Assembly: GCF_003933745.1 (NCBI RefSeq)
Contig: NZ_RSEB01000001.1
Span: 744,001-808,000, forward strand
DNA length: 64,000 nucleotides
Direction: 5' to 3'
Source: Glycomyces terrestris
GTDB lineage: Bacteria; Actinomycetota; Actinomycetes; Mycobacteriales; Micromonosporaceae
Below the pieces are notes generated by a model that saw only the letters and a program-made list of their open reading frames with translations, did not search any database and was not told the origin of the DNA. Below, in pieces: positions 4,279-8,779 of the stretch. Each line of letters begins with the position of its first letter. Position 1 is the first letter of the stretch. Made by a program: the position numbers and the translations under genes.

Positions 4279-6744
4279 CTATTCGCGCAGTCCGGCCCCG
4301 AACCGCTCGGCCGCGACGGCGACCGCGGCGTCGCGCACGGCGACGCCCTCCTCGTTCGTGAGGGTCCGGTCGGCCGCGCGCAGCTCCAGCTTGAACGCCA
4401 GGGACTTGCGGCCCTCGCCGAGCTTCGCGTCGCGGTAGACGTCGAACAGGCGCAGCGACTCGAGCAGCTCCCCGGCGCCCTCGCGGAGGGCGGCCTCGAC
4501 CTGCCCGGCCGGGACGGACTCGGCCACGACGACGGCGACGTCGATGAGCGTGGCCGGGAAGTGCGAGACGACCGGCGCGGGCGCCAGGTCCGGCAGCGGG
4601 AGCGCGGTCAGGTCGAGCTCCATCGCGGCGGTGCGGCGCGGCAGTCCGAGGCGCTCGCACACCTCCGGGTGCAGCTCGCCGGCGTGCCCGACGACGGCGC
4701 CGTCCACGCGCAGCTCCGCGCAGCGGCCGGGGTGCCACGGCGCGGCCTCCCCTTGGGCCGCTTCGAGCCGCACGCCCGCGGCCGCGGCCGCGATCTCGGC
4801 GGCCTCGACGGCGTCGGCCCAGTCCACGGCGCGCCCGGGCGCGTCGACCCCGGCGGGGACGGCCTGGCCGCACAGGACCGCGGCGACGTGGCGCGGCTGC
4901 ACCGGCAGGCGCCGGATCGCGGCCGCGATCGCCTCGTCCGCGGGCCGCTTCGACACCGGCAGCGCCACCGTCTCCAGCTCGGTCCACCCCTCGGCGGGCT
5001 GGAAGACCAGGCCCTCCTCGAACACGGCGAGGTCCTTCGCGCCGCGCGCCAGGTTGAGGCGCACGGCGTTCACCAGGCTCGCGAGCACGGTGGTGCGCAG
5101 CAGCGGCGCGGCGTCGTCGAGCGGGTTGAGCACGGCGACGGCCTCGCGCTGCGGGTCCTTCGCGTCCAGCCCCAGCTCGTCGGCGCGCTCGCGCGAGACG
5201 AACGGGAACGTGTACGTCTCGGTGAACCCGTTGTCCGCCAAGGCGCGCGCCACGCGGCGGCGGCGCCGCTGCGCGGGGGTCAGGCCGGTCCCGGCGATCG
5301 CGCGGGGCGTGGCCGACGGGACGTGCGCGTAGCCGTGCAGGCGCACGACCTCCTCGACCAGGTCGGCCGGGTCGGTGAGGTCGGGGCGCCACGACGCGGG
5401 CGTCACCGACAGGACGTCGCCGCCCTCCACAGTGCACCCGGCGGCTTCGAGCATGGCGACGACCGTGGCGCGGTCGTAGTCGACGCCGACGGTGCGCGAG
5501 GGCAGGTCGACCGGGAGCGCGACGGGCGCGGCCGGTTCGCGGCGGTCGACGTCGGCGACCTCGTCGACGAGCGTGCCGCCGCCGTACTCGACCAGGAGGT
5601 CGGCGGCGCGCTGGGCCGCGAGGAGCGTGATGCCGGCGTCGGCGCCGCGCTCGTAGCGCTTGGAGGCCTCGGAGGTGAGCTTGTGGCGGCGGGAGGTGCG
5701 GGCGATCGAGGTCGGGTCCCAGTGGGCCGCTTCGATGAGCACGTTCCGGGTGCCGGGCACGACCTCGGAGGTGAGGCCGCCCATGACGCCGGCCAGCGAG
5801 AGCGGGCCGGTCGCGTCGCAGATGACCATGTCCTCGGGGTCGAGCCTGCGCTCGACGTCGTCGAGGGTCTTCAGCGTCTCGCCGGGCCGCGCGCGGCGCA
5901 CCACCAGGACGTCCTGGAGCGCGTCGCGGTCGAAGGCGTGCAGCGGGTGGCCCAGTTCGAGCATGAGGTAGTTCGTGACGTCGACGGCCAGGCCCAGGGG
6001 CCGCATCCCGGCCTGCACCAGGCGCTTCGCCATCCATTCGGGCGACTCGGCGTTCGCGTCCACGTCGCGCACCTCGCGCAGCGTGAACCGCGTGCAGCCG
6101 TCGGTCTCGACCCGGACGGGGTAGGGCGGGTGCTCGGTGGCCTTCGGCTCGGCGGCCTTCGCGGCCGGGTCGGTGAAGGCGACGCCGAGGCGGTGCGCGA
6201 CCTCGCGGGCGATGCCGCGCACGGAGAAGCAGTAGCCCATGTCCGGGGTGATCGCGAGCTCGAAGACGACGTCGTCGAGGCCCACGAGCGGCCGGGCGTC
6301 CTCGCCCACGGTGCCCGCGGGCAGGACGATGATGCCCTCGTGGTCGTCGGAGACGCCGAGTTCGCGGGCCGAGCAGATCATGCCGTCCGAGAGGCGCCCG
6401 TACGTCTTGCGGGAGCCGATCGTGAAGCCGCCGGGCAGCTCCGCGCCCGGGAGCGCGACGACGACGAGGTCGCCTTCGGCGAAGTTCCGGGCGCCGCAGA
6501 TGATCGAGCGCGGCTCGGCCTCGCCGACCTCCACCTGGCAGTGGCGGATCGGCTTCTTGAACTCGGTGAGCTCCTCGATGGCGGCGACCCGGCCGACGAC
6601 GAGCGGTCCGGTGACGCGGCCGCGGAGGTCGTCGACCTCCTCGACCTCGAGGCCGCACTCGACCAGCGCGGCGTCGAGCGCCTCGGTGGTCAGGTCGGCG
6701 GGCAGGGCGGCGTACTCGGCGAGCCAGGAAACGGGAATCCTCAT
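4279..6744 (-). CDS. pheT: Phenylalanine--tRNA ligase beta subunit
   Basis: 821 residues, the usual length for the bacterial beta subunit. It starts MRIPVSWLAEYAALP and has the tRNA-binding domain near residues 40-150, the B3/B4 editing region in the middle, the B5 domain around 400-475, a catalytic-like core, and the C-terminal ferredoxin-fold anticodon-binding domain (VSHFPATLIDVAVVV to AERFGAGLRE). With PheS it forms the alpha2beta2 enzyme that charges tRNA-Phe and hydrolyses Tyr-tRNA-Phe. It begins 3 nt after the pheS stop, so translation is probably coupled. It is the last gene of the translation operon; a hairpin follows. Confidence 0.97.
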   Translation of the reverse strand: MRIPVSWLAEYAALPADLTTEALDAALVECGLEVEEVDDLRGRVTGPLVVGRVAAIEELTEFKKPIRHCQVEVGEAEPRSIICGARNFAEGDLVVVALPGAELPGGFTIGSRKTYGRLSDGMICSARELGVSDDHEGIIVLPAGTVGEDARPLVGLDDVVFELAITPDMGYCFSVRGIAREVAHRLGVAFTDPAAKAAEPKATEHPPYPVRVETDGCTRFTLREVRDVDANAESPEWMAKRLVQAGMRPLGLAVDVTNYLMLELGHPLHAFDRDALQDVLVVRRARPGETLKTLDDVERRLDPEDMVICDATGPLSLAGVMGGLTSEVVPGTRNVLIEAAHWDPTSIARTSRRHKLTSEASKRYERGADAGITLLAAQRAADLLVEYGGGTLVDEVADVDRREPAAPVALPVDLPSRTVGVDYDRATVVAMLEAAGCTVEGGDVLSVTPASWRPDLTDPADLVEEVVRLHGYAHVPSATPRAIAGTGLTPAQRRRRRVARALADNGFTETYTFPFVSRERADELGLDAKDPQREAVAVLNPLDDAAPLLRTTVLASLVNAVRLNLARGAKDLAVFEEGLVFQPAEGWTELETVALPVSKRPADEAIAAAIRRLPVQPRHVAAVLCGQAVPAGVDAPGRAVDWADAVEAAEIAAAAAGVRLEAAQGEAAPWHPGRCAELRVDGAVVGHAGELHPEVCERLGLPRRTAAMELDLTALPLPDLAPAPVVSHFPATLIDVAVVVAESVPAGQVEAALREGAGELLESLRLFDVYRDAKLGEGRKSLAFKLELRAADRTLTNEEGVAVRDAAVAVAAERFGAGLRE

Positions 6745-6747
6745 CGT

Positions 6748-7809
6748 CTACTCCTCCACTCGCAGGCCGGCCGGGAACCGGACGTCGCCGTCGATGATGT
6801 CGCGCAGGTCGGTGATGCCGTGGCGCAGCATGAGCGCCCGCTCGACGCCCATGCCGAACGCGAAGCCGGAGTACACGTCGGGGTCGATGCCGCAGGCGCG
6901 CAGCACCCGCGGGTTGACCATGCCGCAGCCGCCCCACTCGATCCAGCGGGCGCCGTCCTTGTGCGCGGCGAACCAGACGTCCACCTCGGCGCTCGGCTCG
7001 GTGAACGGGAAGTACGAGGGCCGCAGGCGGGTCTTCGCGTCGGGCCCGAACACGGACTTCGCGAAGTGGTCGAGGGTGCCCTTGAGGTCGGCCATGGTGA
7101 TGCCCTTGTCGACCACGAGGCCCTCGGTCTGGTGGAACACCGGCGAGTGGGTCGCGTCGACCTCGTCGGTGCGGTACACGCGGCCGGGCGCGACGGTGTA
7201 GATCGGCGGCTCCTGCGTGAGCATGGTGTGGATCTGCACGGTCGAGGTGTGGGTGCGCAGCACCATGTTCGACCCGTAGCCGCCCGTGCCGTCGGCGATG
7301 TGGAACGTGTCCATCATGGTCCGGGCCGGGTGGTCGGGGTGGATGTTCAGGGCGTCGAAGTTGAACCACTCGAGCTCGACCTCGGGGCCCTCGCCGATCT
7401 GGTAGCCCATGGCGACGAACAGGTCCGCGATGCGGTCCATCTGCACGTTGATCGGGTGGCGGGCGCCCTGGCGGCGGCGCGGGGTGCGGGCGGTGACGTC
7501 GACGGTCTCCTCGCGGAGGATCCGGGCGGCCTCGGCGGCCTTGAGGATCTCCTCGCGGGCCTCGTACACGGCGGTGATCTCGGCGCGGGCGGCGTTGACG
7601 TTCCGGCCGGCCTCGCCGCGCTCGGGGCCGGGGATCGAACCGATCGCCCTGCGGGCCAGCGACACCGGCGACTTGTCGCCGAGGACGGCGGACTTCGCGG
7701 CGGCGAGTTCGTCGAGGTTCGCGGCCGCCTCGACGGCGGCGGCGGCGTCTTTCACGGCCCTGGCGAGGGCCTCGGGCTGGAGCAGGCCAGCCTCGTTCTC
7801 AGTGCTCAT
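6748..7809 (-). CDS. pheS: Phenylalanine--tRNA ligase alpha subunit
   Basis: 353 residues. The N-terminal coiled-coil arm is followed by the class II aminoacyl-tRNA synthetase core: HPINVQMDRIADLFVAMGY, motif 2 around VYRTDEVDATHSPVFHQTEG and motif 3 GFAFGMGVERALMLRHGI near the end. It catalyses ATP-dependent activation of Phe and transfer to tRNA-Phe as part of the PheST heterotetramer. ATG 7809 is chosen because AGGAGAG stands 6 nt upstream; an earlier in-frame start at 7833 would lack this site. A probable internal promoter, leader peptide and terminator-like structure lie between the methylase gene and this start, suggesting that pheST is controlled separately from infC. Confidence 0.97.
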   Translation of the reverse strand: MSTENEAGLLQPEALARAVKDAAAAVEAAANLDELAAAKSAVLGDKSPVSLARRAIGSIPGPERGEAGRNVNAARAEITAVYEAREEILKAAEAARILREETVDVTARTPRRRQGARHPINVQMDRIADLFVAMGYQIGEGPEVELEWFNFDALNIHPDHPARTMMDTFHIADGTGGYGSNMVLRTHTSTVQIHTMLTQEPPIYTVAPGRVYRTDEVDATHSPVFHQTEGLVVDKGITMADLKGTLDHFAKSVFGPDAKTRLRPSYFPFTEPSAEVDVWFAAHKDGARWIEWGGCGMVNPRVLRACGIDPDVYSGFAFGMGVERALMLRHGITDLRDIIDGDVRFPAGLRVEE

Positions 7810-7840
7810 TCGTCTCTCTCCTGGCGGGACCACAAGAAGT

Positions 7841-8779
7841 CTAGAAAAGACGCGCGGCGGGGCCGCAGCCCGCTGGGGAGACGTGGACGACTAGCCGCCC
7901 AGCCCGCACCCGGCGGGCTGGATAAATTCGCGGCGGTCGTAGGACATGGCACCAGTCTAACTTCCTGCGCTGCGCGGCGGCGCTCGCGTACAGGCACACG
8001 CCCGCCGCGACCGCGAGGTTGAGGCTCTCGGCCCTTCCCCAGATGGGGACGCCCACGCGGCGGTGGGCGAGGGCGGCCGTCTCGTCGTCGAGGCCGTGGG
8101 CCTCGGAGCCGAACAGCCACACCGTGGGCGCGTCGAGGTCGCCGGCGGCGTCGAGGGCGTACAGGTCCTCCCCGTCGGCCGCGGCCGCGAGGATCTGGGT
8201 GTGCGCGAACACGTCGAGCAGGTCGGCGGTGTCGGCGGCGCGGACGACCGGCAGGTGGAACAGGCTCCCGGCGGAGGAGCGCACGCACTTGCCGTTGTAC
8301 GGGTCGACGGAGTCGGTGCCGAAGACGACGCAGTCGGCCCCGGCGGCGTCGGCCGCGCGGAGCACGGTGCCGGCGTTCCCGGGGTCGGTGATGCCGTGCA
8401 GGACCGCGACCAGCTTCATCTCCGCGAAGGGCACCCGCTGGTCGAGGGCGTGCCGCTCGAGAAAGCGGCAGACCGCGACGAGCCCCTGCGGGGTCACGGT
8501 CTCGGCGAGGGACGCCAGCGCCTCGTCGGTGCACGGGTGCACGTGGGCGCCCGCGGCGACGGCGGCGTCGATCAGGTCCGAGTGGCGGGTGTCGGCGTCG
8601 AGGTCGTAGAACAGGTCCGTGACGACGCCGGCGGCGACGGCCTCGCGGACGGCCTGGGGGCCTTCGGCGAGGAAGCGCTCGGCCTTGTCGCGGCCGCGCC
8701 GGCGCTGGAGCTTCCGGGCGGCGACGACCCGGGACGAGCGCGCGGTGAGCACGTCCGCCCCGGGTTCATCTGCGCTCAT
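7841..8779 (-). CDS. TrmH/SpoU-family RNA 2'-O-methyltransferase (TsnR-like)
   Basis: 312 residues. The N-terminal substrate-binding domain precedes the SPOUT knot with its three motifs: NAGTVLRAADAAGAD, FGSEAHGLDDE and ESLNLAVAAGVCLYAS. The enzyme transfers a methyl group from S-adenosylmethionine to a ribose 2'-OH of rRNA; the exact site is not known, and the position after rplT matches tsnR in mycobacteria. The usual family C terminus is near ASAAAQRR. Here the frame runs about 40 residues further, through a TTA codon and across the pheS leader, so the tail may be a read-through created by a small deletion near 7965. It starts 16 nt after rplT. Confidence 0.85.
   Translation of the reverse strand: MSADEPGADVLTARSSRVVAARKLQRRRGRDKAERFLAEGPQAVREAVAAGVVTDLFYDLDADTRHSDLIDAAVAAGAHVHPCTDEALASLAETVTPQGLVAVCRFLERHALDQRVPFAEMKLVAVLHGITDPGNAGTVLRAADAAGADCVVFGTDSVDPYNGKCVRSSAGSLFHLPVVRAADTADLLDVFAHTQILAAAADGEDLYALDAAGDLDAPTVWLFGSEAHGLDDETAALAHRRVGVPIWGRAESLNLAVAAGVCLYASAAAQRRKLDWCHVLRPPRIYPARRVRAGRLVVHVSPAGCGPAARLF
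7854..7920 (-). promoter_or_regulatory. Alternative stem-loops and terminator-like element before pheS
   Basis: In minus-strand order there are CAGCCCGC (7920-7913), GCGGGCTG (7907-7900) and a second GCGGGCTG (7873-7866), so the first segment can pair with either copy. A short GC hairpin (7866-7854) is followed after GCG by TCTTTTCT (about 7850-7843). This is the arrangement of a transcription attenuator. Pairing was judged by eye; no energy was computed. Confidence 0.45.
7891..7947 (-). CDS. Putative 18-residue leader peptide of pheST
   Basis: ATG 7947 opens MSYDRREFIQPAGCGLGG and ends at TAG 7891, inside the 3' part of the methylase frame but in another frame. TAGACT lies exactly 6 nt before the ATG, so the message would be leaderless. 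The peptide has a single Phe, encoded by TTT, a codon very rare in this G+C-rich DNA, and its stop codon lies just inside the first stem-loop. Slow decoding of Phe could shift the downstream pairing. One Phe codon is weak for a classical attenuator, so this is an inference from position and structure. It is too short for homology support. Confidence 0.4.
   Translation of the reverse strand: MSYDRREFIQPAGCGLGG
7954..7959 (-). promoter_or_regulatory. -10 element TAGACT of the internal pheST promoter
   Basis: TAGACT is the same hexamer that precedes the DUF4191 gene at 61223. It sits 6 nt before the leader-peptide ATG. No -35 consensus is seen. Confidence 0.45.

Follow-up and report, generated by a model that had tools for sequence, protein, structure and literature searches.

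Our analysis points to a leader gene directly upstream of pheST in Glycomyces terrestris that would act as a ribosome-read RNA switch on the pheST transcript from an upstream promoter, P1. We regard this switch, which would be a new variant of leader-peptide attenuation, as somewhat probable. Expression of pheST is probably tuned by the ease with which a rare Phe codon is read. The leader, its own promoter and the alternative RNA folds are supported by comparison of sequences across relatives of the window, which is the whole 64,000-nucleotide stretch of DNA analyzed here. With this element, Actinobacteria gain a candidate Phe-tRNA sensor for pheST, present in most sampled genera of a large family. 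The same element could serve as a clean model for studying attenuation in GC-rich bacteria with hairpins lacking U-runs, and for learning how one rare codon suffices as a sensor.

The gene order on the minus strand of the window is infC, rplT, a SpoU/RlmB-like methylase gene, pheS and pheT, and by reading we placed rpmI between infC and rplT. The PheS protein is 96% identical to that of G. dulcitolivorans. Along the minus strand between the methylase and pheS lie a TAGACT box, a 6-base gap, the leader ORF with segments 1 and 2, its stop, a spacer, segment 3, a hairpin, a T-run, a second TAGACT box and the pheS Shine-Dalgarno (SD) sequence (Table 1). Apart from the second TAGACT, which directly follows the T-run and had gone unmentioned, the elements reported in the sequence-only reading (TAGACT, ORF, TTT, segments, hairpin, T-run, SD) were all found at their places on this strand. 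A simplified layout search, which required a short ORF containing TTT, a 7-nt segment complementary to two sites further downstream and then a 5-bp hairpin, hit a single site when both strands of the window were scanned, the pheS leader, and none in 60 first-order random windows. The leader layout before pheS is not there by chance. Profile matches of the methylase ORF stop near residue 268, and the remainder overlaps the leader in a different frame. This ORF has no stop at the usual end and continues for ~40 residues past the SpoU domain, through the leader (7841-7975, minus strand).

Table 1. Coordinates of the pheST leader region and flanking genes in the window
Feature	Position	Strand	Basis or remark
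Methylase ORF (SpoU/RlmB-like), 5' of leader	7841..8779	-	PF00588 above cut-off; TIGR00186 under cut-off
P1 -10 element TAGACT, for the leader transcript	7959-7954	-	TANNNT exactly 6 nt 5' of ATG, 19/19 Glycomyces
Leader ORF, 18 codons, MSYDRREFIQPAGCGLGG*	7891..7947	-	ATG 7947, TAG 7893-7891; start and stop in frame in 19/19 Glycomyces
TTT, sole Phe codon of the leader	7926-7924	-	In 57/57 aligned leaders
Segment 1, CAGCCCGC	7920-7913	-	Begins 3 nt past TTT; pairs with segment 2 or segment 3
Segment 2, first GCGGGCTG copy	7907-7900	-	Within leader ORF
Pyrimidine-rich spacer, leader stop to segment 3	7877..7890	-	Candidate partner of pheS SD region
Segment 3, second GCGGGCTG copy (7873-7866) preceded by CCA	7866..7876	-	Helix 1:3 covaries
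Hairpin 3:4, core GCGGC-CCC-GCCGC (7866-7854), outer pairs 7871-7868 with 7853-7849	7849..7871	-	Core covaries
T-rich run TCTTTTCT after hairpin	7850-7843	-	Terminator-like site
P2 -10 element TAGACT, pheS-proximal	7843-7838	-	TANACT 3' of hairpin in 19/19 Glycomyces
pheS SD, AGGAGA	7822-7817	-	Read in window; Glycomyces loci compared
pheS	6748..7809	-	TIGR00468, E 9.6e-91; ATG at 7809
pheT	4279..6744	-	TIGR00472, E 1.8e-175

Conservation of the ORF and stems in relatives, which the sequence-only reading had named as a check on its proposal, turned out to be strong. Within Glycomyces, 19 of 19 loci (the window's own genome, 17 of 18 same-genus relatives and locus L002; the 18th relative gave no PheS match) carry the leader, the TTT codon, the hairpin, a TANNNT 6 nt before the ATG and a TANACT after the hairpin. 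Across the order, 76 of 397 genomes contain the exact three-segment pattern, though they cover only 6 of 85 genera; a reversed control pattern turned up in 6 genomes. All 30 pattern loci that were read lie about 51-121 nt before pheS. In the GTDB family, a covariance model built from 29 sequences (alignment A2) matched 172 of 200 genomes, belonging to 38 of 44 genera (E up to 0.01). Thirty-nine representatives were read, 37 of them with a PheS match in the fetched stretch. Elsewhere in the class the model gave nothing convincing, with 18 of 394 genomes matched at E up to 0.1; 15 of these 18 were dropped as chance, and only three family genomes had pheS in the fetched locus. The Actinoplanes loci L003 and L004 carry the element. 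It is also present in two more families, f13 (5/5 sampled, including L233) and f5 (2/3).

In the window, the six bases GGTGCC separate TAGACT from the leader ATG, and the leader ORF is probably leaderless. The leaderless start proposed earlier holds for Glycomyces, where the -10 element stands 6 nt from the start in 19/19 loci, and is not general in the wider set. Among 57 aligned leaders, a TANNNT 5-7 nt before an in-frame start was found in 20, an SD-like string (called with a loose pattern) in 34 others, and neither in 3. Counting from TTT, 48 of the 57 leaders stop at +33 or +36. The L002 leader has a 3-nt deletion that keeps the frame. Because frame, start signals and TTT are conserved, we infer that the leader is translated. 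Its translation together with some role in pheST control is likely. The peptide core is FIQPAGCG in 18 of 19 Glycomyces loci and FSRPAGCG in L099, and the peptides end in GLWR* (11/19), GLGG* (3/19, window included) or one of four other forms (5 loci). Neither of two related leaders, 21 and 27 aa long, matched a profile in NCBIfam or Pfam; at 18 aa, the window's own peptide falls below the length that such a scan needs. Ribosome arrest by a conserved peptide, F.QPAG, was considered and set aside, as P-A-G is dictated by conserved RNA letters and the G is missing in L195, L212, L213 and L216.

The Phe codons UUU and UUC are read by one tRNA, UUU more slowly. Within the 31 window ORFs, which were picked by codon composition, TTT accounts for 1 of 410 Phe codons. 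The single Phe codon had been called a weak point of the attenuation proposal; it is instead among the most conserved features, present in 57/57 leaders, a count whose evidential value lies in the alignment column, given that the leader-finding pattern itself contains TTT. A second Phe is present in 2 of the 57. A rare codon suits a sensor: Elf and Ehrenberg (PMC1183508) argue that sensitivity is set by low general codon usage and by which of the synonymous codons is used. The base after TTT is A in 52/57 leaders and C in 5/57, though the next codon varies. The only counterexample met was L243 (genome G038, f5), a similar ORF with TTG where others have TTT.

Segment 1 had been described as able to pair with either of two identical copies, segments 2 and 3, and these competing pairings gained support from comparison. 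Covariation was assessed in an alignment of 57 sequences (A3). Helix 1:3, scored over 10 pairs, together with the hairpin core had 97.9% of cells paired and two-sided changes in six pairs and 15 cells, in an alignment that was fitted to the 1:3 plus hairpin structure and whose counts lean that way. None of 500 shuffles was as good, and slid versions scored far lower. In the hairpin core, GC changes to AU and CG to UA. Compensatory pairs in the hairpin and in 1:3 include GCGGT/ACCGC and GTGGC/GCCAC. By eye, L195, L212, L213 and L235 preserve 1:3 via compensatory changes. Helix 1:2 hardly varies: its six core pairs are kept in at least 52 of the 53 sequences with letters, and covariation is next to none, with one weakly covarying pair (2 cells). 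In families f13 and f5, helix 1:2 takes another register. The outer pairs of the hairpin are less well kept and weakly supported. RNAalifold found no pair changed on both sides in 18 of the 19 Glycomyces loci (alignment A1, excluding L093 for a long insertion), because the paired letters barely vary within the genus. These GC-rich inverted repeats could in principle be DNA operators for a protein, with the ORF incidental, and GCGGC-NNN-GCCGC does stand immediately upstream of the P2 -10 element. We consider this reading highly improbable, since start, TTT and stop are kept in frame and the compensatory pairs in the hairpin and in 1:3 fit RNA, granted that an inverted-repeat operator could also stay symmetric.

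The terminator-like site after the hairpin is the sole one in 7700-8100 (shuffles mean 0.1). At least five T in eight bases near the hairpin were found in 3 of 8 Glycomyces sequences and 2 of 49 others in A3. A search of Rfam with 7700-8100 gave no match at the gathering threshold and two weak hits far under the thresholds. Two further pairings were rejected. A 0:4 pairing, between the region upstream of TTT and the 3' arm of the hairpin, appeared in single-sequence folds; it was uneven, with a mean of 0.40 without a ribosome, and is not counted as conserved. The other, between TTTA and the TARAC of P2, was dropped because P2 is not fixed in position.

The effect of a ribosome on these folds was computed for nested, equilibrium structures, with a mask of 15 nt each side of the first base of the P-site codon, a footprint taken from E. 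coli. Without a ribosome, 1:3 was above 0.5 in 56 of 57 sequences. With the ribosome at TTT it was above 0.5 in 0/57, and an extended hairpin was favored in 40/57. With the ribosome at the stop, 1:3 was above 0.5 in 43/57. In this equilibrium folding model the folds are mutually exclusive and depend on ribosome position. The window's own RNA reached just 0.34 for the extended hairpin on stalling. When the pheS start was included, 1:3 of the window RNA yielded to 1:2 and partly to SD-region pairing unless the ribosome was at the stop.

These results suggest how the proposed switch would work. P1-like -10 elements would drive a short ORF in which Phe is encoded by the rare UUU, and in most leaders the stop is placed so that a ribosome terminating there would occlude segment 2 and leave segment 1 available. 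If UUU is read fast, the ribosome would complete the ORF and 1:3 could form. A ribosome awaiting Phe-tRNA would instead sit on segment 1, preventing 1:3 and leaving a local hairpin downstream, possibly with the spacer and segment 3 paired to the pheS SD. Expression of pheST from P1 would in this way be tied to Phe-tRNA charging, and P2, where present, would bypass the switch. Stalling would open the operon, as expected for a synthetase, if the closed form consists of 1:3 together with either the stacked hairpin or a spacer paired to the SD. On physiology alone we lean toward this classical sign, with scarcity raising pheST and 1:3 closed, but no more than that, since the computed structures offer no simple account of it.

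The E. coli-type attenuation logic assumed in the sequence-only reading is not supported by the folding computations. The textbook pheM logic does not follow because a ribosome parked with TTT in its A site covers segment 1 and favors the hairpin, so that stalling at the cognate codon favors the extended hairpin in the model and not an antiterminator. Should the hairpin act as a terminator, stalling would bring termination in the computed switch; this would close the operon, opposite to pheM and with the wrong sign for a synthetase. The polarity could then be inverted, with 1:3 as the open form. Smooth translation of UUU would let segment 1 capture segment 3, breaking both the terminator-like hairpin and an SD-masking helix, and a stalled or missing ribosome would leave both closed. 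P1 expression would follow good translation, and P2 would cover starvation. The masked folding fits this reading, with the extended hairpin in 40/57 on stalling and 1:3 otherwise, and so does the window's T-run behind the hairpin. Against it, a synthetase under positive feedback would be unusual, T-runs are rare outside Glycomyces, and modeled SD accessibility barely changes; we judge the inverted polarity a tentative and on balance unlikely alternative. That the element amounts to a new topology, in which the segment after a single invariant rare codon picks between two like copies, smooth translation opens the operon, and a stalled or absent ribosome closes both transcription and the SD, the reverse of textbook attenuators, is in our view rather doubtful.

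Complementarity to the SD bears on the same alternative. A duplex test used 30 of 48 sequences kept after removal of similar SD regions. Across genera, the spacer with 5 nt of segment 3 was more complementary to its own pheS SD region than to those of other species, with 1 of 20000 permutations as good, a point in favor of inverted polarity. The spacer alone was marginal (920/20000; backward control 4111/20000), and within Glycomyces the test was not significant (2368/20000). The own spacer was the best partner in its row in 0/30 cases, and 8/30 spacers beat 95% of their own shuffles. Predicted SD accessibility was nearly independent of ribosome position, at 0.24 with no ribosome, 0.26 with one at TTT and 0.23 with one at the stop, in the 57 sequences minus 5 without a recognized pheS start and 4 with starts more than 130 nt away. 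For this reason, translational control through an SD-masking helix stays an idea.

The proposal that pheST has its own promoter gained support from comparison for the -10 element of the leader, promoter calls throughout being motif-based. Outside Glycomyces the likely P1 lies in the methylase end. A TAYNNT, falling within the methylase C-L-Y codons, was found there in 34 of 36 readable representatives (of 39) and in 13 of 19 further leader-bearing loci, and in none of 17 leader-lacking loci and none of 17 Glycomyces loci; the methylase end is unreadable for this count in 3 of the 39 representatives, in L021, in L002 and in some further loci. The two representatives lacking TAYNNT there, L196 and L215, instead show a TANNNT close to where the leader begins. 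L003 and L004 likewise have no TAYNNT in the methylase end and carry a TANNNT 6-7 nt before the start. In four loci of f13 g13 there was no TAYNNT in the methylase end and no P1 was located. P1 thus seems to sit in two positions and to accompany the leader. A sigma-70 scan requiring a -35 element found none in 7700-8100.

The second -10 element lies next to pheS, so the leader may govern only part of pheST transcription, and P2 could supply all of it. A TANA[CA]T occurs within about 106 nt past the hairpin in 48 of 57 leaders. An ordinary double promoter would explain this, with P1, the mini-ORF and a terminator forming a small separate transcript ahead of the true promoter P2 and having no control over pheST. 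In keeping with this, a -10-like box is retained where the leader is absent (TAGACT in L231 and L234, TACGAT in L228), and several leader-lacking Actinobacteria have TAGACT-like boxes before pheS by eye. The block carries a Phe codon, though, and stands immediately before pheS in all 30 pattern loci read, and in the 9 of 57 leader-bearing loci with no TANA[CA]T between the hairpin and about 90 nt beyond it, pheS may depend on P1. We find the double promoter improbable and retain the switch on the P1 transcript as our preferred reading. In L195 (genome G766), a relative of lower GC content, the hairpin is followed by a long T-run (TTTGTTTTTT). Its pheS may depend on P1 alone because there is no TANA[CA]T before pheS.

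The E. coli pheM-pheST attenuator has a leader ORF with several Phe codons. The element described here resembles it in having a leader ORF with a Phe codon directly before pheST, downstream of infC and rplT, and in its alternative RNA folds. It is placed like pheM and has no sequence match to a described leader. The two differ in the single UUU and the methylase gene between rplT and the leader in our element. Segment 1 here chooses between two like copies in place of the 1:2, 2:3, 3:4 chain of E. coli; the T-run is mostly absent, and most loci have a second promoter before pheS. Actinobacterial leader peptides before synthetase genes are also described in Streptomyces lividans for alaS, thrS, leuS and trpS (PMC8079986). 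The thrS, leuS and trpS leaders are stated there to be leaderless, the trpS leader has a single Trp, and some lack a U-run. The eight leaders listed in that paper include none for Phe or pheS, and the passages on them give no comparative covariation.

Attenuation of pheST in Escherichia coli is mentioned in a 2005 survey (PMC1262725), whose passages on Actinobacteria assign trpS and leuS classical attenuators, call the mechanisms at ilvB and leuA unclear, and report no conserved RNA structures before phenylalanine genes. The LEU element of leuA in Actinobacteria, as outlined there, likewise combines a leader peptide with alternative structures possibly involving the SD; it differs in its leucine codon run, its conserved pseudoknot and the gene it precedes. 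The mycobacterial Cys leaders in the same survey are also short ORFs with the cognate codon; unlike the pheST leader, they carry Cys codons in runs close to the stop and lack conserved hairpins. We found no report of this pheST leader element in the open-access literature; a prior mention is possible in subscription papers.

The leader has diverged or disappeared in some relatives. Of the 28 family genomes without a model match, 9 were examined and 7 had a pheS locus. By eye, two of these seven, L232 and L235, show a diverged leader. L228, L230, L231 and L234 have no leader and L229 retains a remnant, all five being family members. In L229, a remnant of segment 3 and a TAAACT precede pheS, and the leader and the methylase end are gone. 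Diverged leaders of the F..PV.G type that keep TTT were found in 5 of 13 f4 genomes read (L102, L251, L273, L283 and L285); TTT is likewise kept in diverged relatives in f13 g37 and in a second f5 genome. By eye, a compensated partner for segment 1 is retained in L102 and L251, whose GTG starts were read by hand. In 6 of 8 genomes of f15 g38 (L239, L260, L261, L262, L263 and L267), another ORF, MER.VRSSTLFTA* with one TTT, lies ~190 nt before pheS, and it is possibly a second, independent Phe leader.
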